From NCBI GenBank assembly GCA_017405065.1, contig JAFRBD010000050.1:1-40744 (forward strand): a stretch of DNA of 40,744 bases. The letters are read 5' to 3'. Within the stretch, counting starts at the first letter, position 1. Every line of letters starts with the position of its first letter. This document shows, one piece after another, positions 11,897-34,569 of this stretch. Made by a program: the position numbers and the translations under genes. Below the pieces are notes generated by a model. It was not told the origin of the DNA. It was given only the letters and a program-made list of their open reading frames with translations, and ran no database searches. Source of the DNA: Ruminococcus sp. GTDB lineage: Bacteria; Bacillota; Clostridia; Oscillospirales; Acutalibacteraceae.

Positions 11897-11916
11897 TAAA
11901 AAAGAGGTGATACGCC

Positions 11917-12144
11917 GTGAAGAAGTTCGCCCGCGACGTCTGCAAAGACGAGCTCGCCGATGTTATCGACCAGTGGGTGATACTATCCACTCATGCCGAG
12001 CGCGATCGGCGTATCTTATACCGCCGCTTCGTGGACGGCGTGCCGGAGTTTGAACTCTGTGAGGAGTTTGACTTGTCCCGGCAACGTATACAAAGGATAG
12101 TAGATAAGTGGTTCGATGTGCTTTGCGAGCACATCGGCGATTAA
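11917..12144 (+). CDS. Small sigma-region-4-like HTH protein
   Basis: 75 residues from GTG 11917, behind AAGAGGTGATACGCC. Residues 30-68 (RRILYRRFVDGVPEFELCEE, DLSRQRIQRIVDKWFD) resemble sigma-70 region 4 or ArpU-type helix-turn-helix: a first helix, then a recognition helix after DLS. It is the last gene of the rightward structural and lysis operon and is closed by a strong terminator. It may regulate late genes or the adjacent accessory operon. Confidence 0.65.
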   Translation: MKKFARDVCKDELADVIDQWVILSTHAERDRRILYRRFVDGVPEFELCEEFDLSRQRIQRIVDKWFDVLCEHIGD

Positions 12145-12149
12145 AGCAC

Positions 12150-12184
12150 AAGGCGACTGCCCGAGAGGGTAGCCGCCTTTTTTT
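12150..12184. terminator. Strong intrinsic terminator between converging operons
   Basis: A 12-bp arm AAGGCGACTGCC at 12150-12161 pairs with GGTAGCCGCCTT at 12168-12179 (one mismatch, one wobble) and is followed by a run of T at 12178-12184. It ends the late operon; the facing leftward operon ends at 12186, so it may serve both directions. Confidence 0.9.
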
Positions 12185-12185
12185 G

Positions 12186-12626
12186 TTATATGGTATTTAT
12201 CCAGTTTTCGATGTATGCGCTTACGGTCTGTCCGTCCTTTTGCGCCGCTTGTTTGAGCTTTGCAATGGCAGCTTTGGAAAGATTCACGTGTATCTGAGCT
12301 TTGCTATCGTCTTCTTCCGGCTCGCCGAAGATCGCGAGCCAGTCGTCGGCGGGCATTTCCAACTCGCCCCATTTGCGCGCCTGTTCGTAAGTCAGCGCAA
12401 AAATGTGATTTTCTTTGTCGTGCGGGCAAGAACTGATCCCGAGGTTGTGCGCGGCGTTGGATTCGGCAAGATTTGGACGAAACAAGAAAAACTCGCCATT
12501 TTTTTTCTGATAAAGCAGCTCTTCTAACGGTTTTCTGTCGGGTCCGATGTACCGGTCGTTTTTCACGGCTGCTATCAGTTTTGCAGCGTCTGTATCGTAT
12601 ACACGATTTTTTATGATTTTTTTCAT
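12186..12626 (-). CDS. Ribbon-helix-helix domain protein, last gene of the anti-CRISPR operon (possible Aca-like regulator)
   Basis: 146 residues from ATG 12626, with AGGAGGGTAAAATC ahead. Residues about 1-45 (MKKIIKNRVYDTDAAKLIAA ... LYQKKNGEFFLF) resemble a module common in Firmicutes mobile-element proteins; residues about 112-146 (AQIHVNLSKAAIAKLKQAA ... TVSAYIENWINTI) are a ribbon-helix-helix DNA-binding motif of the CopG/Arc type. Its ATG overlaps the stop of the AcrVA2-like gene (ATGA), so the two are translationally coupled. Anti-CRISPR genes are often followed by DNA-binding regulators (aca genes), so autoregulation at the palindrome near 15043-15084 is a reasonable inference, not shown. 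Confidence 0.7.
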   Translation of the reverse strand: MKKIIKNRVYDTDAAKLIAAVKNDRYIGPDRKPLEELLYQKKNGEFFLFRPNLAESNAAHNLGISSCPHDKENHIFALTYEQARKWGELEMPADDWLAIFGEPEEDDSKAQIHVNLSKAAIAKLKQAAQKDGQTVSAYIENWINTI

Positions 12627-13609
12627 GATTTTACCCTCCTGATCGTCACTATGTTGTTGTAATCGGCGTTGATAATAACGGGACTTACCCACTTCAAAAT
12701 CAACTTTCTGTCGGGGCTGTCTTTTGCCCCCGTCCAAAAATGGTGATAATGTCCGCGTCGGGCGTGTGTGCGCTTGCGAGCGTGTGAGCCTTCACGTTTA
12801 GTCGTTTCCTCTTGCGGAGCTTTTGGTACGGAGCGCTTTGCTTTGCGAATCGCGCTGCCGTATCGGTAGCCTACGTCCCACCGGCGCAGCTCTCGAAATG
12901 TGTCAGGGCGCAGATCTGCGGTTTTTTCTTCTGCCGGTGTTTCTTCGGCTTTCGACGCGGGTTCGGGATGCGCACGATCATATATCTCTTTCTGCTCGGC
13001 GTTTTCTTCTACGTCGGCGTTCGCGGAGCAAAGATAAAGCACCATCTGCAAGGCGAGGTTTGAGAAATCGAGAGTATCATCGTTCGGACGCAGCATTTCA
13101 TTCATACTTTCGCGCAAAGATTGCGTTTTATCGAGTGTGAAGCCAAGAGACAGCGCCCGAGCGTTATCAAATACTATCACAAACGCGGCATATACGCGGT
13201 CGATGTAAAAAAACACTCCGTCGATATACATCGTTTCTTTGATGTCTACGTGTAGTGTTTTCAGGCGCGGCACAGACATCATCTTGCTCGGAAGCCGCAT
13301 ATACACGCCGTTATAAGGCAGCCCCATCAACGCCTCACATGGTATCTCGTTGTCGAGCGAGTCAGCTTCGCGCAGCAGCTTGATCAACGACTTGTCGAAA
13401 TCAAAAATCGTTTTGTGCCTGCGCCACTCGGCGACGGCGTAGAGCAGCCCCGCCGAATCTTTATACTCCATCTCCCGACAGTAGCCGCGAACCTTTAAAA
13501 TGTCCGCCACTCCGTCGGTGTATAATTTTTCCCAAATGTGTGAGTCGTTCTCGATCAGCACATCTATCATTTCAAGTGGGAGGATAGTCTCCCGTTTCTT
13601 TTTTGCCAT
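12623..13609 (-). CDS. AcrVA2-like anti-CRISPR family protein
   Basis: 328 residues. The C-terminal segment (residues about 280-320) has RRGHYHHFWTG, then a basic K-L-I-L-K-W segment and SPVIIN. This corresponds to the RRGHWHGYWQG ... RVRWQPAVFVN end of Moraxella AcrVA2. An internal GLPYNGVYMRLP (about 96-107) corresponds to LPDWCVYVDI in AcrVA2. Length (328 against 322) and the acidic, low-complexity linker at about 205-235 also fit. AcrVA2 lowers Cas12a levels by acting on its message during translation. Distant AcrVA2-family proteins are common on Firmicutes mobile elements and most are untested, so activity is inferred. Coupled to the ribbon-helix-helix gene downstream. Confidence 0.75.
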   Translation of the reverse strand: MAKKKRETILPLEMIDVLIENDSHIWEKLYTDGVADILKVRGYCREMEYKDSAGLLYAVAEWRRHKTIFDFDKSLIKLLREADSLDNEIPCEALMGLPYNGVYMRLPSKMMSVPRLKTLHVDIKETMYIDGVFFYIDRVYAAFVIVFDNARALSLGFTLDKTQSLRESMNEMLRPNDDTLDFSNLALQMVLYLCSANADVEENAEQKEIYDRAHPEPASKAEETPAEEKTADLRPDTFRELRRWDVGYRYGSAIRKAKRSVPKAPQEETTKREGSHARKRTHARRGHYHHFWTGAKDSPDRKLILKWVSPVIINADYNNIVTIRRVKS

Positions 13610-13613
13610 TCCG

Positions 13614-13835
13614 TCACCTCATCGTCGCCGTGCCTCTGCGTAACCTTGCCCGGAAAGCTTCGGGCGTGAGCTGGCGGCTTGCGTTGTCCCAACCGCCGTC
13701 TTTCGCTGCAATATAAGGGTAGCTTGTGCGGTAATCAAATCCCGTTCCGATAGTTCCGCGCACGATCAGCCCGTTTTCGATGTATACGTCGTATCCTGCA
13801 ACTTTGTGCCAGCCGTCAGTGTATATTTTTTTCAT
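13614..13835 (-). CDS. Small hypothetical protein of the anti-CRISPR operon
   Basis: 73 residues, ATG 13835 behind AAAGGAGGAAACACT. It starts MKKIYTDGWHKVAGYDVYIE and ends with an Arg-rich LTPEAFRARLRRGTATM segment. I recognise the general pattern from hypothetical genes of Clostridia mobile elements but know no function. It lies 4 bp upstream of the AcrVA2-like gene and has a structured leader (13861-13890) upstream. Confidence 0.75.
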   Translation of the reverse strand: MKKIYTDGWHKVAGYDVYIENGLIVRGTIGTGFDYRTSYPYIAAKDGGWDNASRQLTPEAFRARLRRGTATMR

Positions 13836-13860
13836 AGTGTTTCCTCCTTTTTGGGCTTTT

Positions 13861-13890
13861 GCGGAGACTTTGCCCGCTCCGCTCGGGGTG
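13861..13890 (-). ncRNA. Structured leader hairpin, copy A
   Basis: On the minus strand the conserved block CCCCGAGCGG opens a 6-bp stem GCGGAG/CTCCGC (13877-13882 with 13861-13866) whose loop begins CGGGCA. It lies directly after the stop of the upstream gene and 25 bases before the start at 13835. One of four related hairpins in the genome, with stem changes that keep pairing. Confidence 0.6.
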
Positions 13891-13896
13891 TGTTTG

Positions 13897-14451
13897 TTAA
13901 TCGCCTATCAACGCATTCAGCTCCGCAAGCCTTGCCAGCAGCCTGTCGCGTTCTTCGATCAATGCAGCTTTGTCGGGTGCTTTGTACAGCGACACGCCCG
14001 CTTCGTCCTTGATCTTCTCGTAGAGCTTGACGGGGATATCCTTCACGCGGATAACGGTACCGCTGTCGGGATATACGCGGGGATTTTTCACCGAACCGCC
14101 CGAAGAAGGAAATCCGCCCTTGACCAGCATTACGTTATCCGCGTATGTGACGTTGCTGTCGCGGTATCTCCTCCTGATCGCCACGAAGCTGCCTATAGAG
14201 ACTTCCGCGCCGACGTGCTTGTACTCATCGAGATCGAGATCAACAGTAACGGTTACAGGCGCTTCATCGGCGAGATCTCCGCACTCGCCGTAAACGTCGA
14301 GCAGGATCTCACGAAGCTCGTTGATGTTTCCCTCAGGGAAAACCCAGTAAGGGGAGTTCCACTTGCCCTGTATGCTTTTCGCTCGGGTGATAAAATCACG
14401 GTTGTACTCGCTCTGTACCTTAATTTTGCCATTTTCGATGATAGTTTTCAT
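13897..14451 (-). CDS. Hypothetical accessory protein of the anti-CRISPR operon
   Basis: 184 residues from ATG 14451 behind GAAAGGAGCGGTCACA; a longer frame upstream runs through the structured leader and is not used. The N-terminal 55 residues (IIENGKIKVQSEYNRDFITR, IQGKWNSPYWVF) form a compact module seen repeatedly in mobile-element proteins; the middle is a beta-rich domain (VGSFVAI-like, MLVKGGFPSSGGSVKN) and the end is a coiled coil (ALIEERDRLLARLAELNALI). Function unknown. It might be a further anti-defence factor, given its neighbours. Confidence 0.75.
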   Translation of the reverse strand: MKTIIENGKIKVQSEYNRDFITRAKSIQGKWNSPYWVFPEGNINELREILLDVYGECGDLADEAPVTVTVDLDLDEYKHVGAEVSIGSFVAIRRRYRDSNVTYADNVMLVKGGFPSSGGSVKNPRVYPDSGTVIRVKDIPVKLYEKIKDEAGVSLYKAPDKAALIEERDRLLARLAELNALIGD

Positions 14452-14485
14452 TGTGACCGCTCCTTTCGAAATCGCTTGTTTATCT

Positions 14486-14514
14486 GCGGCAGGCTGCCCG
14501 CTGCCGCTCGGGGC
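14486..14514 (-). ncRNA. Structured leader hairpin, copy B
   Basis: Minus-strand CCCCGAGCGG block with a 7-bp perfect stem GCGGCAG/CTGCCGC (14501-14507 with 14486-14492) and loop CGGGCAGC. It lies between the stop at 14523 and the start at 14451. Nearly identical to copy C. Confidence 0.65.
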
Positions 14515-14522
14515 TTTGCTTT

Positions 14523-14741
14523 TCACTGCTCTGTGAGCATATCGTAAATTTCGAGTTCGTTGAAAGTCTCAGCTATTTCTTCTTCGGGGTTGCTTGCATC
14601 TATCTGCACGAGCTGCTCTACTGCATTATCTGCACCATACTCTTTCTCGATGTACGCAAGTGCTGCGTCGAAGGTGTCAAATTCCTTCACAACATTTGTG
14701 TATGTGCCTTCGATTACTTTGAAATTTGTGTAGTTTCTCAT
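14523..14741 (-). CDS. Small acidic hypothetical protein
   Basis: 72 residues, ATG 14741 behind AAAGGGAGTTTTACT. It reads MRNYTNFKVIEGTYTNVVKE and ends in a very acidic tail (NPEEEIAETFNELEIYDML). Short acidic proteins are common among anti-CRISPR and DNA-mimic proteins, but that is only a suggestion. Second gene of the leftward operon, with structured leaders both before and after it. Confidence 0.7.
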   Translation of the reverse strand: MRNYTNFKVIEGTYTNVVKEFDTFDAALAYIEKEYGADNAVEQLVQIDASNPEEEIAETFNELEIYDMLTEQ

Positions 14742-14778
14742 AGTAAAACTCCCTTTCTGCTTTTGACTCAGTTTATCT

Positions 14779-14806
14779 GCAGCAGGCTGCCCGCTGCCGC
14801 TCGGGG
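14779..14806 (-). ncRNA. Structured leader hairpin, copy C
   Basis: Minus-strand CCCCGAGCGG block; 7-bp stem GCGGCAG/CTGCTGC (14794-14800 with 14779-14785) in which one G-C of copy B is replaced by G-U, so pairing in RNA is kept. Loop CGGGCAGC. Upstream of the start at 14741. Confidence 0.65.
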
Positions 14807-14814
14807 TATATTTA

Positions 14815-14973
14815 TTAAATTTTCTCAATCGTGTAGCTGTCGATGCACTCGCCTATCAGCTCGTCCAGAGCCTCGATCATTTCATCGTAGCTGTCGAAAT
14901 CTTCGCCGATCGTGTAGTCTTCGGTGTACTTAACTTTGCCATTTACTATCTGATATGTTCTGTAGTTCATCAT
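14815..14973 (-). CDS. Small acidic protein, first gene of the anti-CRISPR operon
   Basis: 52 residues from ATG 14973 (next codon is also ATG), behind AAAGGATGTTTATT. It reads MMNYRTYQIVNGKVKYTEDY and is rich in Asp and Glu (DFDSYDEMIEALDELIGE). It is shorter than most ORF cut-offs but has a ribosome site and lies just downstream of the operon promoter, and its opening resembles that of the next gene (MRNYTNFKVIEG), suggesting a duplicated small-protein family. Confidence 0.7.
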   Translation of the reverse strand: MMNYRTYQIVNGKVKYTEDYTIGEDFDSYDEMIEALDELIGECIDSYTIEKI

Positions 14974-15028
14974 AATAAACATCCTTTCTGTTTTTGGGCT
15001 TAGCCCTCATTTCCTTTTCTCTGATTAT

Positions 15029-15057
15029 ATTATATCATAGAATTTAGCCAAAGTCAA
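15029..15057 (-). promoter_or_regulatory. Sigma-70 promoter of the anti-CRISPR operon
   Basis: On the minus strand TTGACT (15052-15057) and TATAAT (15029-15034) are separated by exactly 17 bases, close to consensus. It faces leftward about 55 bases upstream of the first small gene and should drive the genes at 14973-12186. An inverted repeat overlaps it. Confidence 0.85.
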
Positions 15058-15084
15058 GAGATTTTGAAAAAAAGTTTGGCTAAA
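15043..15084. promoter_or_regulatory. Inverted-repeat operator at the anti-CRISPR promoter
   Basis: TTTAGCCAAA at 15043-15052 and its exact reverse complement TTTGGCTAAA at 15075-15084 have starts 32 bases apart, about three helical turns. One arm lies in the promoter spacer up to the edge of the -35 box; the other is upstream. This is the geometry of a repressor site, possibly for the ribbon-helix-helix protein of the same operon. Confidence 0.7.
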
Positions 15085-15150
15085 CTCAAAATTTGTATAC
15101 TTGCACAAAATCACCCGCATACTTTGTACATTTTGCCGTGTGCAAAAAGA

Positions 15151-15206
15151 AGCCGAAAGATAGCCGAAAGACAGGCGTTTCAGCGGTTCTTTCGGCTGCT
15201 TTTTTA
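15151..15206. terminator. Bidirectional terminator with duplicated left arm
   Basis: The 10-base arm AGCCGAAAGA occurs twice (15151-15160 and 15162-15171), and both can pair with TCTTTCGGCT at 15188-15197. Rightward, the inner copy pairs and GCTTTTTT follows; leftward, the outer copy pairs and a TCTTTTTG tract follows. One structure can thus insulate the anti-CRISPR operon from the insertion sequence in both directions. No gene is visible at 14990-15277; it holds only the promoter, operator and this terminator. Confidence 0.75.
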
Positions 15207-15362
15207 TGCTATGATATCAAAAAAAGAAAGACCTGCAAATAAAAGTCAATACCGAAAATGAATGATTTACAAAATCTTAACAAGTGCAAAAACAGGTACG
15301 ACAATAAGACCGCAATGAATATTTTTCAAAGCAGTCATTGGCTATATTTTGAGAATGATTTG

Positions 15363-16559
15363 TCAGCACAGCACTTGCATTACTCTGGCATAGTATATCC
15401 TGAGAAACTTGTGCGCGGCTGCTATCATATACACTCGGTACGGCTTGCCTTCGCTGCGTTTCTTGTCAAGAAACTGATATACAGGCTCGTTTATGGGGTG
15501 CTGTTGAAGATATATAGTCATGATCTGAAACAGAGTCTTGCGAAGAAATGGGGAACCGCATTTGGAGATACTTCTCGACTTGGCATCGTGCTTGCCTGAC
15601 TGATCGGGCGGCGGATCGATACCGGCTAATGCGACGAGCGACTTTGAACTTTTGAGATGTCTAACATCACCGATCTCTGCGATGAGCTGCGAGCAGAATA
15701 CCTTGCCGACACCGAACAGGCTCATTACAACATCGTATTCGGGCAGCTTTGAGGAGAGGTCGTCCATCTCGTGTCTGAGCTTGGAAAGCGTTTCAAGCAT
15801 TGAATTAAGCTGCTCGGCAGCAATAGTGACCATCTTCATTACGGCTTCCGTACAGGGCATTGGTGCTGAAACGGTTCTCGAATAAGCGTGTATCCATTCG
15901 GCTTTTTTCTCGCTGAATTGATAACCGCATTTCTTGCACCAGCTCTGATACTTGACCTTGAAAGCCGAAAAAGAGAGATTGGACACGCACTCTATGTGCG
16001 GAAATTTCAATACGAAATCCACCCACTTTTCGTGTCCGTCAGAGTCTCTGCGCGGCGAAGTAAACAGCGTATTTGCATTCGGAAAACAGGTATCAAGCAA
16101 TGCGATAAAACTGTTTTTCTGCATGACAAGTATCTTGTTGAACTGCTCATACTGACGATTCATGACCTTGAGCGTCCTGCGGGTATCCTCGGCGGGAGCG
16201 TACTCACGGAGCTTGAGCCATTTGTCAATAGCAAACGATGCTAGCCTGAGTGCGTCGTGCTTGTCGGTCTTGACTTTTCTGACACGATTTGTATCGTAGT
16301 CATCAATTACAAGAGGGTTGACTACGCTTACGAATATACCTGAGTTGTGGAGCGCGTTAGCGACGGGTTCATAATATGTTCCCGTGTACTCCATGACCAC
16401 CCTTGTTTCACCGGGCAGCGACTTGATGAACCTCGCAAGCTCTGCAAGCTCGCTGTCTGTGTGAGACACATCATAAGGCGCGGCTATGACAACTCCGAAA
16501 GGCTGAATGACAGCCACTGTACTCTTGCCTTTGGAAACGTCGATACCTACTGCGTTCAT
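15363..16559 (-). CDS. IS110-family transposase (bridge-RNA-guided recombinase)
   Basis: 398 residues from ATG 16559, six bases after GGAGAG; an ATG at 16565 abuts the ribosome site and is less likely. The N-terminal RuvC-like DEDD domain shows AVGIDVSKGKSTVAV (first Asp), VVMEYTGTYYEPVA (Glu) and KVKTDKHDALRLA (Asp pair). A coiled-coil middle follows, and the C-terminal Tnp20 domain has ALAGIDPPPDQSGKH and ISKCGSPFLRKTLF with the catalytic serine. All key residues are present and the frame is intact, so the element may be active. Confidence 0.95.
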   Translation of the reverse strand: MNAVGIDVSKGKSTVAVIQPFGVVIAAPYDVSHTDSELAELARFIKSLPGETRVVMEYTGTYYEPVANALHNSGIFVSVVNPLVIDDYDTNRVRKVKTDKHDALRLASFAIDKWLKLREYAPAEDTRRTLKVMNRQYEQFNKILVMQKNSFIALLDTCFPNANTLFTSPRRDSDGHEKWVDFVLKFPHIECVSNLSFSAFKVKYQSWCKKCGYQFSEKKAEWIHAYSRTVSAPMPCTEAVMKMVTIAAEQLNSMLETLSKLRHEMDDLSSKLPEYDVVMSLFGVGKVFCSQLIAEIGDVRHLKSSKSLVALAGIDPPPDQSGKHDAKSRSISKCGSPFLRKTLFQIMTIYLQQHPINEPVYQFLDKKRSEGKPYRVYMIAAAHKFLRIYYARVMQVLC

Positions 16560-16566
16560 AAACATC

Positions 16567-18821: not shown

Positions 18822-19925
18822 TCACAGCAGATTCACGGCGCTCAGACGGTCGGCGATGGAAAGGTGCGTATAGTCGAGGGTGGTATCGTAGTCCTCATGC
18901 CCTGCGAGTTCTTGGAGCATGGCGGGGGATACGCCGAGCGCAGTCAGGCGGGTGATGTAGGTGTGGCGGCAGCAGTAAGGCGTTAAGCACTCCCGCAGAC
19001 CGAGCGCATCCCGCTTTGATATCCATGCTTCGTAAAAATCGCTATCTTTGCGGTAGTAGTACAGCCGATAGCTCCGCTCTTCGCGCATGAGCTGCGCTAT
19101 GATGGGCGTTATCTTATCGGGAATTATCAGCTTTCGGCGCTTGCCGCGTGCCGTTTTTATGCCGCCCGTCATATAGTGCTCGCCAAGGTGGACGTTCTCG
19201 GTGCGTATCGTCAGCAGCTCCCCGGGGCGTATGCCGACATAAAGCATGATAAGCATACCCGCCGTGATCTTGTCGCCCGTCGCCGCATAGTCCGACCACA
19301 GCGCCGCGATCTCTTCGCCGGCAAACGTCTCCCGCTCCGTCGTCACCAGCTCGGGCAGTTTGATAAACTCGGCGCGGTTTTTGTCCTCGAAGTCGTCACG
19401 GATAGCTATCTTGTACAGCTTTGATATCAATGCTTTGATATCTCGGCGGGTGTAGTAGGTTGGCGCAGCTCCGTCCACCAGCTCTTGCAGCTCGGGGACG
19501 GAGAAGCTGTCTATCGTGCGCCACGCTATCTCGCCGCTTATCTTTTTCCATGCTCCGCGATAGGCGGTCTGCTTGGATTTGCTCAGGCGGTCGAGCTCAG
19601 GCTTTAGGCGCTCGTACAGCTCCGACATGGTGATAGTCTTTGACTGCTCGGGGCTCGTTCGGAGCGTTTCGATATATGCCACAGCTTCTTTTTTCGTTCG
19701 GAAGCCATACTTTCGCGCCCGTTTCCGTTTCTGCTTGCCGTCGGCGATGTAGTAGCCGAGCGTCACCTCCGCCGCCCACGTCCCGCAGGGCATTTTGTAC
19801 ACGCTCCCTTGTCCGTTTCCTCTGGACTTCGTTTTGCGCTCGGGCTCGGCTTGTTTTTTCCCGCACCAGCAGCAAAAAAGGGAGCCGTCCGGCAGCTCCT
19901 TTTTGCACTTAATGCAAATCGCCAT
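18822..19925 (-). CDS. int: Tyrosine integrase
   Basis: 367 residues. An N-terminal zinc ribbon (CIKCKKELPD ... CCWCGKK, residues 4-24) precedes an arm-binding domain (NGQGSVYKMPCGTWAAEV), a SAM-like core-binding domain (about 95-190) and the catalytic domain. Catalytic residues visible: Arg in YVGIRPGELL, Arg-His in CCRHTYITRL, His in LAGHEDYDTT and the nucleophile Tyr in LDYTHL. The first His of the usual HxxR motif is Tyr/Cys, as in many Firmicutes integrases. Catalyses attP x attB recombination at tRNA-Ser. It is the last gene of a leftward operon and ends at attP. Confidence 0.95.
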   Translation of the reverse strand: MAICIKCKKELPDGSLFCCWCGKKQAEPERKTKSRGNGQGSVYKMPCGTWAAEVTLGYYIADGKQKRKRARKYGFRTKKEAVAYIETLRTSPEQSKTITMSELYERLKPELDRLSKSKQTAYRGAWKKISGEIAWRTIDSFSVPELQELVDGAAPTYYTRRDIKALISKLYKIAIRDDFEDKNRAEFIKLPELVTTERETFAGEEIAALWSDYAATGDKITAGMLIMLYVGIRPGELLTIRTENVHLGEHYMTGGIKTARGKRRKLIIPDKITPIIAQLMREERSYRLYYYRKDSDFYEAWISKRDALGLRECLTPYCCRHTYITRLTALGVSPAMLQELAGHEDYDTTLDYTHLSIADRLSAVNLL

Positions 19926-21597: not shown

Positions 21598-21727
21598 GCC
21601 GACGAAAGAGGAACTGATAAACGATATCATCGAAAGACTGGTCGATCTCGGCTTTATCGCCCTCAAGGAAAGAGCTGAGGGCGATAAGCCCGAGAGCGTC
21701 AAAGCTCGTCCGGATGATCTCGCTTAA
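21590..21727 (+). CDS. Very small hypothetical protein
   Basis: 45 residues from ATG 21590, with ATAGGAGGTGACTCGA ahead. Reads MPKPTKEELINDIIERLVDL then a charged end. It is coupled to the previous gene and its 3' end overlaps the converging CI-like gene by 29 bases, so the two transcripts are complementary at their ends. Confidence 0.65.
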   Translation: MPKPTKEELINDIIERLVDLGFIALKERAEGDKPESVKARPDDLA

Positions 21728-22058
21728 ACTGCAAAAATTTTAGATACTGCTGAAGCTCGACAAGCTCATCATATGATAGCTTGTTGAGCTGCTCATAAAT
21801 TTCGTCCTTATAGGTTTCTATAGGGACGAATTTTTTTTGCTCTTCTGCAATCTCTGGAAGCAAAGTATCTATATACTCATTAATATCACACCCAATCACC
21901 TTGCAAAGTTTCAAAAGTGTTTCGATTGCAACACGTTTGTTATTTCGGGAAATGATGCTTCCGATAGTAGTCACAGGGACACCCGAACGGCGCGAAAGTT
22001 CAGCTTTGCTCATGTGTTGTTCGTCCATGTGTTTTTGCAAAAATTCGCCAATCAGCAT
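21699..22058 (-). CDS. CI-like XRE-family repressor
   Basis: 119 residues from ATG 22058 behind GGAAGGAGGTGTATAA. An XRE helix-turn-helix occupies residues 5-60: MSKAELSRRSGVPVTTIGSI, then VAIETLLKLCKVIGCDINEY. The C-terminal third is a short helical region without a LexA/CI peptidase domain, so induction must involve something other than self-cleavage (for example an antirepressor). Divergent from the Cro-like gene with four operator-like sites between them, the arrangement of a lysis/lysogeny switch. Confidence 0.85.
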   Translation of the reverse strand: MLIGEFLQKHMDEQHMSKAELSRRSGVPVTTIGSIISRNNKRVAIETLLKLCKVIGCDINEYIDTLLPEIAEEQKKFVPIETYKDEIYEQLNKLSYDELVELQQYLKFLQFKRDHPDEL

Positions 22059-22139: not shown

Positions 22140-22273
22140 GCGAAAATTCGGCTTTTTCTACAATTACTTATAAAATAATTGTGCAAGTATACAAAAATGC
22201 GAAAATTCGCCGTTTTGTATTGACAATCGGCGAATTTTCGCATATAATGTAATTGCAAACGGCGAATATTCGG
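22140..22273. promoter_or_regulatory. Array of four switch operators
   Basis: Near-palindromes of the form GCGAAWWTTCGC occur at 22140-22151 (last base variant), 22199-22210, 22230-22241 and 22262-22273 (last base variant), with another half site at 22273-22279. The third lies in the spacer of the rightward promoter and the fourth just downstream. Spacings of 59, 31 and 32 bases suggest cooperative binding by the CI-like and Cro-like proteins on one face of the helix for the last three. Confidence 0.85.
22220..22248 (+). promoter_or_regulatory. Rightward early promoter
   Basis: Perfect consensus TTGACA (22220-22225), 17-base spacer, TATAAT (22243-22248). An operator fills the spacer, so repressor binding should directly block polymerase. 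It drives the Cro-like gene and the early operon. Confidence 0.95.
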
Positions 22274-31011: not shown

Positions 31012-31785
31012 ATGAGGGGCAACATGGCTTATCGGGAACAAAGGTTTGTTTCGGGTGACTACCTCGATGTGAACATTTATCCCGTGTTCCGCTCTCGGAG
31101 ACAGACGAAGCGGTCGATCGTTCGGAAACCGACAAAAGCTGTCCAGCAGGCTCTCAACCGCCGGAACCGTGCGCGGGAAGTCAACCATGTGATCTGCGCG
31201 AATTTTTCGAACGCGGATTACTACCTCACCCTGACCTATGCCGGGATACCTCCCAGCGAAGAGCAGGCTCGCCGGGACGTTGAAAATTTTTTGAAGAGAT
31301 ACGCCCGCGCTTTTGCTAAGAAGGGGCAGACGGTTTTTAAGTACGTGAAAACAATCGAGACGGGGCGGAACGGTCGTGCGCATATCCATCTCGTTCTCAC
31401 GGGCGGGCTCTCCCCGAAAGAGGTGCAGGCGCTCTGGGGGCGCGGATACATAGACTGCAAGCCGCTCATGTTCAGCACGCAGGGTGTCGCAGGGCTGGCG
31501 AGATATTTCACGAAAGAACCCCGCAACGAAGCCGGAAGCGGAAGCCGCCGCAAGTCGTGGAGCTGTTCGCGGAACTGCATACACCCCGAGCCCAAAACAA
31601 ACGATTACAAGTACAGCAAGAAAAGAGCGGCAGAGCTTGCCCGCGAAAGCGAAAACGCCCGCCTGCTCGAAAAGCTGTACCCCGATTACATCTGCGCGGA
31701 GTGCAAGCCGTTTTATAACGATCAAACGGGGCTGTACTATCTCGCGATGCGTTTTTATAAAAAAACTGCCCGTCTGGATATTTAA
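31012..31785 (+). CDS. HUH endonuclease, rolling-circle type replication initiator
   Basis: 257 residues from ATG 31012 behind AAGGAGGGCAGGACC (ATG 31024 also possible). Motif I: YYLTLTYAG (about 70-78). Motif II: GRAHIHLVLTG with the metal-binding His124 and His126. Motif III: GLARYFTKEP with a single candidate nucleophile Tyr165 and Lys168. This is the layout of single-Tyr HUH Rep proteins found in ssDNA phages and elements and in some Firmicutes siphophages. A C-terminal Cys pair (CAEC) follows. It should nick one strand at the origin. It is the only replication enzyme visible in the genome. Confidence 0.85.
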   Translation: MRGNMAYREQRFVSGDYLDVNIYPVFRSRRQTKRSIVRKPTKAVQQALNRRNRAREVNHVICANFSNADYYLTLTYAGIPPSEEQARRDVENFLKRYARAFAKKGQTVFKYVKTIETGRNGRAHIHLVLTGGLSPKEVQALWGRGYIDCKPLMFSTQGVAGLARYFTKEPRNEAGSGSRRKSWSCSRNCIHPEPKTNDYKYSKKRAAELARESENARLLEKLYPDYICAECKPFYNDQTGLYYLAMRFYKKTARLDI

Positions 31786-34453: not shown

Positions 34454-34569
34454 GGCGGGTGTAGCTCAGCGGTCAGAGCGCGGTTTGCGGAGCCTTGACA
34501 AAGGCTCTGACAGCTATTTTTCTTTGCTTAGGGAGCCCGATGCCGCAGGTTCGAGTCCTGCCGCCCGCC
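34454..34569 (+). tRNA. tRNA-like gene with an oversized centre (tRNA-His-like ends)
   Basis: Acceptor stem GCGGGTG (34455-34461) pairs with CGCCCGC (34562-34568), one G-U. An extra G at 34454 faces C at 34569, the hallmark of tRNA-His. D arm GCTC/GAGC (34464-34467, 34476-34479) and T arm GCAGG-TTCGAGT-CCTGC (34545-34561) are regular. Between D and T arms stand 65 bases instead of about 23. A loop TTGCGGA (34485-34491) could be an anticodon loop with GCG, where His has GTG, but its stem is weak; the rest can form hairpins (GAGCCTT/AAGGCTC at 34491-34508). Decoding is doubtful. Confidence 0.55.

Follow-up and report, generated by a model that had tools for sequence, protein, structure and literature searches.

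A candidate autoregulated accessory operon with an AcrVA2-family gene in a phage genome binned with Ruminococcus sp.

The window analyzed here is the whole of contig JAFRBD010000050.1 (40,744 nucleotides; NCBI GenBank assembly GCA_017405065.1, Ruminococcus sp.), and all positions refer to it. Its two ends share an exact repeat of 141 bases, leaving ~40,603 unique bases, and because of this terminal repeat the window was read as a circular phage genome. Phage hallmark genes (terminase, portal, and capsid) are present, and the window has the appearance of a complete circular genome of a temperate phage. The operon under study sits in the interval from the lysis side to the integrase gene, and consists of six leftward genes (14973 to 12186), all behind one extended consensus promoter. 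The open reading frames (ORFs) of 52, 72, 184, 73, 328, and 146 codons were present where a first-pass annotation, made by a model from the letters alone, had placed them. The ATGA overlap of genes 5 and 6 was likewise confirmed (12623-12626). The genes are listed below; the ending of gene 6 is of the ribbon-helix-helix (RHH) type, and L numbers denote individual loci used for comparison.

14815..14973, minus strand: gene 1 (P0006, 52 residues), small acidic cargo protein (13 D+E, 4 K+R), PHROG match weak
14523..14741, minus strand: gene 2 (P0005, 72 residues), acidic cargo protein, relatives in the L109 and L110 operons
13897..14451, minus strand: gene 3 (P0004, 184 residues), phrog_18108-like accessory protein, relatives in Fusobacterium phages
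13614..13835, minus strand: gene 4 (P0003, 73 residues), cargo protein, very similar relative in the L108 operon
12623..13609, minus strand: gene 5 (P0001, 328 residues), AcrVA2-family protein with an invariant H-x-RR-x-H-x-H-xx-W region near the C-terminus
12186..12626, minus strand: gene 6 (P0002, 146 residues), N-domain and C-terminal RHH, proposed autoregulator

The consensus promoter reported earlier at 15029-15057 was recovered, with a 17-base spacer and 11/12 matches, as the best of seven promoter-like sites in 11900-15400. The inverted repeat formed by the two boxes beside it was also found as described, being perfect over 10 bases and matching at 12/13 over 13.

15052..15057, minus strand: -35 hexamer TTGACT
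15029..15034, minus strand: -10 hexamer TATAAT, preceded by TG
15043..15052, minus strand: predicted inner operator box TTTGGCTAAA, directly after TTGAC, its first base shared with the end of the -35 hexamer
15075..15084, minus strand: predicted outer operator box TTTAGCCAAA, start-to-start distance 32
15093..15108, minus strand: upstream element TTGTGCAAGTATACAA, 16 bases, common to the early promoter region of the phage

Taken alone, the repeat was moderately unusual: when the 137-base region was Markov-shuffled 1000 times, 26 of the shuffles contained an arm of at least 10 bases. The boxes of relatives settled the matter against chance, and the repeat carries weight because the same boxes recur there. 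The closest P0002 relatives among 80 viral loci (L108 and L109, 49% identity) have exact copies of both boxes before their own operons, spaced by 33 and 31 bases, respectively, with one box turned round in L109. The promoter region is conserved across the window and these two loci (mean column identity 80%). More widely, 10-mers repeated at 28-37 bases were found at 36 of 93 promoter-like sites upstream of P0002-family genes, some of which overlap, against 9.4 expected. The common design is a -35 TTGAC fused to the box TTTNNNNAAA, usually with a similar box 28-33 bases upstream.

This design was scored as the number of mismatches to TTGAC plus TTTNNNNAAA, a -10, and a second TTTNNNNAAA farther upstream whose N4 is identical or complementary; the score was fixed after a first look at the promoter-like sites. 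It was at most 4 in 46 and at most 3 in 40 of the 93 P0002-family loci (at most 4 in 37/77 when counted as 90%-identity clusters), and shuffled sequences never scored below 6 (n = 465). In real-DNA controls, scores of at most 4 were reached by 0/93 on the opposite strand, 1/182 downstream, and 3/166 before AcrVA2 ORFs lacking a P0002 relative (none of these at most 3). A held-out set was obtained by searching with other P0002-family members: 77 new stretches with the gene were found, 42 were already known, and 35 were left. Thirteen of the 35 scored at most 4, compared with 0/35 on the opposite strand and 0/175 shuffles; counted as clusters outside 90% identity to the first set, 11/30 did so. 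Among the 13 positives, L349-L351 are near-identical, and L310, L329, and L348 have an end unlike the family RHH.

The N4 segment of the box varies between phages, and its association with protein residues was analyzed in 33 loci (score at most 3, N-domains less than 90% identical), a sample from which locus relatedness was only partly removed. Residue 113, a histidine in P0002, ranked first of 139 columns for N4 being ATAT or not (z 6.8, 0/300 permutations). Presumably, residues 111, 113, and 115 would face the DNA, following the usual alternating pattern of an RHH strand. AGCC boxes were paired with H at residue 113 in three loci, GTAC with H in two, and CTAC with N in two, while ATAT was paired with S in nine of 13; a post hoc Fisher test on the last pairing (9/13 vs 1/19) gave p = 2e-4. 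In the held-out loci, GTAC inner boxes upstream of genes with the RHH tail were again paired with H at 113, as judged by eye.

The P0002 family is a family of its own, without a name in the libraries searched. Its members combine a conserved N-domain (Y-D-T..TA.. and E-x-LY-x-K-x-x-GE-x-F; ~100 residues in gene 6) with a strongly variable, RHH-like C-terminal tail. The RHH ending proposed for gene 6 was recovered as weak tail matches in gene 6 and its relatives, and gene 6 alone stayed under the Pfam and NCBIfam cut-offs (best Pfam match DUF6364, E = 0.0088; PHROG 'Arc-like repressor', E = 0.0014). A family profile searched against PDB gave eight matches with E at most 1, four of them at the tail (CopG twice, MazE7, and NikA; E 0.09-0.8); the top match (E 0.08) is unrelated and hits the N-domain. 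On plasmids, for example of Halorubrum, Lactococcus, and Vagococcus, matches were confined to the N-domain, which suggests that this domain may exist without the RHH tail.

Neighbors of P0002-family genes are often recombinases, repressors, and endolysins (by eye); in 42 of 64 cases, the gene is preceded within 60 bases by another on the same strand. Within three genes of an AcrVA2-like gene (143 non-redundant proteins), the commonest neighbor family was that of P0002, at seven loci including the window (next family, five); both gene orders occur, and once the genes are convergent. Conversely, 77 of the 80 P0002-family viral stretches have no AcrVA2-like gene, and only three do. P0002 as an Aca specific to AcrVA2 was ruled out by this count. 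Of the first-pass proposal that gene 6 is a new type of Aca regulator, the autoregulatory part is upheld by the boxes of relatives, the box-RHH association, and the held-out loci, while dedication to AcrVA2 is not. A 2019 survey gives 0% neighboring Aca homologues in RefSeq for AcrVA2 (PMC6739104).

Gene 5 is a member of the AcrVA2 family by sequence similarity, as the first-pass annotation had suspected from its ending. Its single-sequence search of PDB sequences returned AcrVA2 (7ci1) as the sole match (E = 2.8e-8, residues 32-315), and a profile of 54 relatives matched 7ci1 over nearly its whole length (E = 2e-41). Nine residues are invariant across 54 aligned sequences including the window, seven of them being H282, R284, R285, H287, H289, W292, and W307. 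This C-terminal region is also visible in the 7ci1 alignment, and the stretch 278-310 was the best conserved of the four compared. Loci with AcrVA2-like genes were taken as the best 80 of 101 viral and the best 80 of 89 bacterial loci; within the genus of the bin to which the phage was assigned, one of 150 genomes has such a gene, namely that of the window. At L040, L058, L078, L084, L202, and L205, AcrVA2-like genes lie close to ParB-like, PAPS-reductase-like, and GNAT-like genes, named from their sequence look, and these surroundings are possibly a DNA-modification island.

The genes between box promoter and regulator differ among relatives. With a simple gene caller, 81 cargo ORFs were found in the 46 box operons and fell into 51 single-linkage clusters, the largest of which (14 members, perhaps mixed) is headed by a zinc-finger-like protein. 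In the window, L026, and L025/L190, the cargo enclosed by the box promoter and the P0002 relative includes an AcrVA2-like gene. Cargo partly differs elsewhere: L108 has a relative of gene 4 and L109 one of gene 2, neither with AcrVA2. A Pfam search of six cargo proteins gave one match, to a GNAT acetyltransferase. Fast turnover of cargo behind a strong regulated promoter is what usually marks counter-defence sets. The four small upstream proteins of the window look like typical swapping cargo, and the anti-defence role suggested for them earlier is a guess. The zinc-finger-like family (TG-x-x-KQIAWA, named by eye; L026, L035, L140, L181, and others) was seen upstream of P0002-family genes at 15 of 70 loci.

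On this evidence, the locus is probably an accessory (moron) operon of a temperate phage that carries an AcrVA2-family gene among interchangeable cargo and is autoregulated by its RHH protein. P0002 is very probably the DNA-binding autoregulator of the operon, with the inverted repeat as its operator, because the boxes are conserved in relatives, the box varies with the RHH strand, and the design was found again in held-out loci. From these sequence comparisons, we infer the following course. When naked phage DNA enters a cell, the strong promoter would be free, and six proteins would be made, including the AcrVA2-family protein. P0002 would then bind the two TTTGGCTAAA boxes, one in the promoter directly past the -35 hexamer and one upstream, and so shut its own operon, limiting expression to an early burst. 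By homology, the AcrVA2-like protein would recognize some host peptide as it is being made and reduce the level of the corresponding mRNA. In other phages, the same RHH family would serve many other cargo sets through different box sequences.

A link of the operon to the early regulation of the phage is also probable, since the 16-base TTGTGCAAGTATACAA recurs in the interval between the repressor gene and the early genes and is retained unchanged in L109 and with one mismatch in L108. Two matches within three mismatches were seen in 0/100 shuffles. The elements concerned are as follows.

22179..22194, plus strand: TTGTGCAAGTATACAA again, identical, in the gap separating the repressor gene from the first rightward early gene
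21699..22058, minus strand: repressor-like helix-turn-helix (HTH) gene of the phage, candidate reader of TTGTGCAAGTATACAA

Several observations weigh against autoregulation through the boxes. About half of the P0002-family loci have no box promoter at the threshold used, and the AcrVA2/P0002 neighbor loci L183, L223, and L023 have no good one (scores 7, 5, and 6). The exact box pair was found in 10 contigs, and a P0002 relative was present only in the two already known; the stretch examined in the other eight had none, and there the pair lies inside an open frame of at least 202 codons in five contigs and not in three. A scan for the -35 plus box gave 11 contigs, with a -10 behind it only in the same two (by eye). 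The three TTTGGCTAAA operons may have swapped their 5' portions in recent time, given that gene 4 is very similar in the window and L108. In the association, residue 113 came second when boxes were labelled as A/T-only or G/C-containing, the presumed contact positions 111 and 115 were unremarkable, residues 117 and 140 also associated, and some kinship among loci was left in the sample. Strand identity beyond N-domain identity was not significant for same-box pairs (349/2000 permutations).

The alternative that survives best is that these are an ordinary set of unrelated small phage genes, the AcrVA2 likeness reflecting a general phage family that normally serves some purpose other than anti-defence. 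The family is indeed broad, with matches in 50 of 50,697 phage records (nine of these covering at least 80% of the query), most cargo tested was without functional annotation, and the 50 host genomes searched for Cas12a gave none. We consider this explanation rather unlikely: the characterized family member is an anti-CRISPR (PMC13131331), the promoter is strong and regulated, and the cargo of relatives changes fast (51 clusters for 81 ORFs).

The phage is contig C159 of a binned genome (2.52 Mb, 160 contigs, completeness 91.28, contamination 5.3), to which it was assigned by binning alone. Assignment through copies of the IS110-family transposase gene (15363-16565, between the operon and the integrase gene) or through terminase relatives was also attempted, and no close relatives were found in the sampled genomes; the host is therefore uncertain. 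Across 147 other related genomes, terminase identity reached 34% at most.

In the first-pass annotation, gene 5 was taken to act on Cas12a. The corresponding explanation, in which gene 5 would lower Cas12a in type V-A strains of the host and gene 6 would be a dedicated Aca, is unlikely. It draws on the near-full-length similarity to AcrVA2 and on the proposed search of host relatives, in which Cas12a exceeded the family cut-off in four of 198 related genomes (three of the genus of the bin and one of the order; a fifth match was weak and below the cut-off). All four genes adjoin V-A type arrays, with 38 spacers in total. Against it, the genome of the bin yielded no Cas12a and no V-A repeat motif. 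Cas12a was also found in 0/50 of the searched genomes with AcrVA2-like genes (out of 80 loci), an absence that is unproven since control genomes were also without a match, while the same model did match among the 198 relatives. The best match of the 38 spacers to the phage had six mismatches in 26 bases and shuffled spacers reached seven, so it is about as expected by chance. The regulator, as counted above, is mostly found without AcrVA2, and AcrVA2-like relatives, some of them partial matches, also occur in phages infecting Erwinia, Klebsiella, and Leptospira. At the LSKT position of the AcrVA2 motif, three of the related Cas12a proteins read VQKT, QSKT, or IQKT (by eye); AcrVA2 is described as recognizing the N-terminal LSKT peptide of nascent Cas12a and lowering Cas12a mRNA (PMC13131331). 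The claim that gene 5 acts on Cas12a was thus left unsupported by the bin, the genomes with relatives, and the spacers, and Cas12a is a doubtful target for it. According to a conference report, AcrVA2 is usable against tagged Cas9 and Cas12f (PMC12908700); the mechanism may therefore be general, and the target of gene 5 may be other than Cas12a.

That the boxes are read by the phage repressor or a host factor, with P0002 acting elsewhere (one option being an antitoxin-like or anti-defence protein that dimerizes through its RHH), is suggested by TTGTGCAAGTATACAA as a sign of a further regulator at the promoter, the weak RHH scores, and one plasmid relative annotated as HicB family antitoxin, and is improbable given that the box design tracks the P0002 family across phages and held-out loci, that the box varies with an RHH strand residue, and that a host factor would need no separate box per phage.

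Compared with known systems, gene 5 resembles Moraxella AcrVA2 (PDB 7ci1, 7ci2) over nearly its full length, including the invariant C-terminal His/Arg/Trp region. It is 22% identical to the relative in Moraxella phage Mcat1 (alignment A1), and differs in host, neighbors, and probably target, with no Cas12a found in the genome of the bin. Shewanella phage vB_SbaS_Y11 also bears an AcrVA2 relative, and a Shewanella genome is described as having type I-E rather than type V; the phage belongs to another phage group (PMC10846135).

An Aca-like role for P0002 is well supported by the sequence comparisons. As with Aca proteins, its gene is last in the operon, downstream of an acr-like gene and with a predicted operator in the promoter, and autorepression would presumably give an early burst. 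It differs in having an RHH-like C-terminus instead of an HTH, and so falls outside the HTH definition, in its extra N-domain of ~100 residues, and in that most sampled operons have no known Acr. Ten HTH Aca families are described (PMC9410906), and phage repressors of the Aca kind are described as HTH proteins (PMC8708921).

The nearest described logic is that of Reg(p576) of pLS20-family conjugative plasmids, an RHH repressor acting on strong promoters with operators and giving transient early expression of establishment genes (PMC8708921). It belongs to a plasmid rather than a phage and is likened by description only, not by sequence; its operators are described as flanking promoters (PMC8708921), whereas the P0002 boxes are paired TTTNNNNAAA sites with a phage-specific core. 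In archaeal viruses, small anti-defence genes, some with RHH domains, are described under a common promoter/operator; there, Aca8 is a winged HTH protein, and the regulon has many separate promoters rather than one operon (PMC11065993). In the literature within scope, which left out most subscription papers and preprints, this and the pLS20/p576 work were the only studies returned when RHH or CopG proteins were looked for together with anti-CRISPRs.

If the proposed regulation holds, an RHH class would be added to the phage autoregulators known as Aca, and a Firmicutes-type phage would be seen to carry an AcrVA2 relative within an operon of this kind. TTGAC-TTTNNNNAAA and its similar partner box, most often 28-33 bases upstream, would then be a simple DNA signature for counter-defence candidates in gut phages. 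Whether AcrVA2 relatives silence defence proteins other than Cas12a would also become testable, given that the 50 searched genomes with relatives yielded no Cas12a. More tentatively, and with less confidence than even chances, widespread RHH regulators may run interchangeable accessory operons in Firmicutes phages of the gut and rumen via paired TTTNNNNAAA boxes fused to the -35. The N4 would be a phage-specific 'address' read by residue 113, sparing co-resident prophages the mutual silencing of an incoming burst, and the 51 cargo clusters would be a large, mostly unexplored counter-defence set, collectable by promoter alone.

Further features of the operon and the phage are listed below.

14771..14806, minus strand: hairpin-forming intercistronic leader repeat, 5' of gene 2
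14478..14513, minus strand: hairpin-forming intercistronic leader repeat, 5' of gene 3
13861..13888, minus strand: diverged leader repeat, 5' of gene 4, stem bases changed with pairing kept
12150..12179, minus strand: possible terminator hairpin 3' of gene 6, 9-pair stem with one G-T and a weak T tail (by eye)
18822-19925: integrase gene

The three leaders are related, and their core pattern occurs nowhere else in this genome. As candidate structured RNAs they were rejected: the folding energies of all three were no better than those of shuffles, and Rfam gave no match there. Directly past the lysis genes and convergent with the operon, a small protein (11917-12144) resembles sigma-70 region 4 (E = 2e-4, under the Pfam cut-off). 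An Rfam tRNA match at 34455-34569 (46.3 bits) spans 115 bases against a model of 71 positions; ARAGORN reported no tRNA, and the element is perhaps a tRNA with an insertion. At 31012-31785, a protein of this tailed phage matches the replication-associated Pfam family REP_ORF2-G2P.

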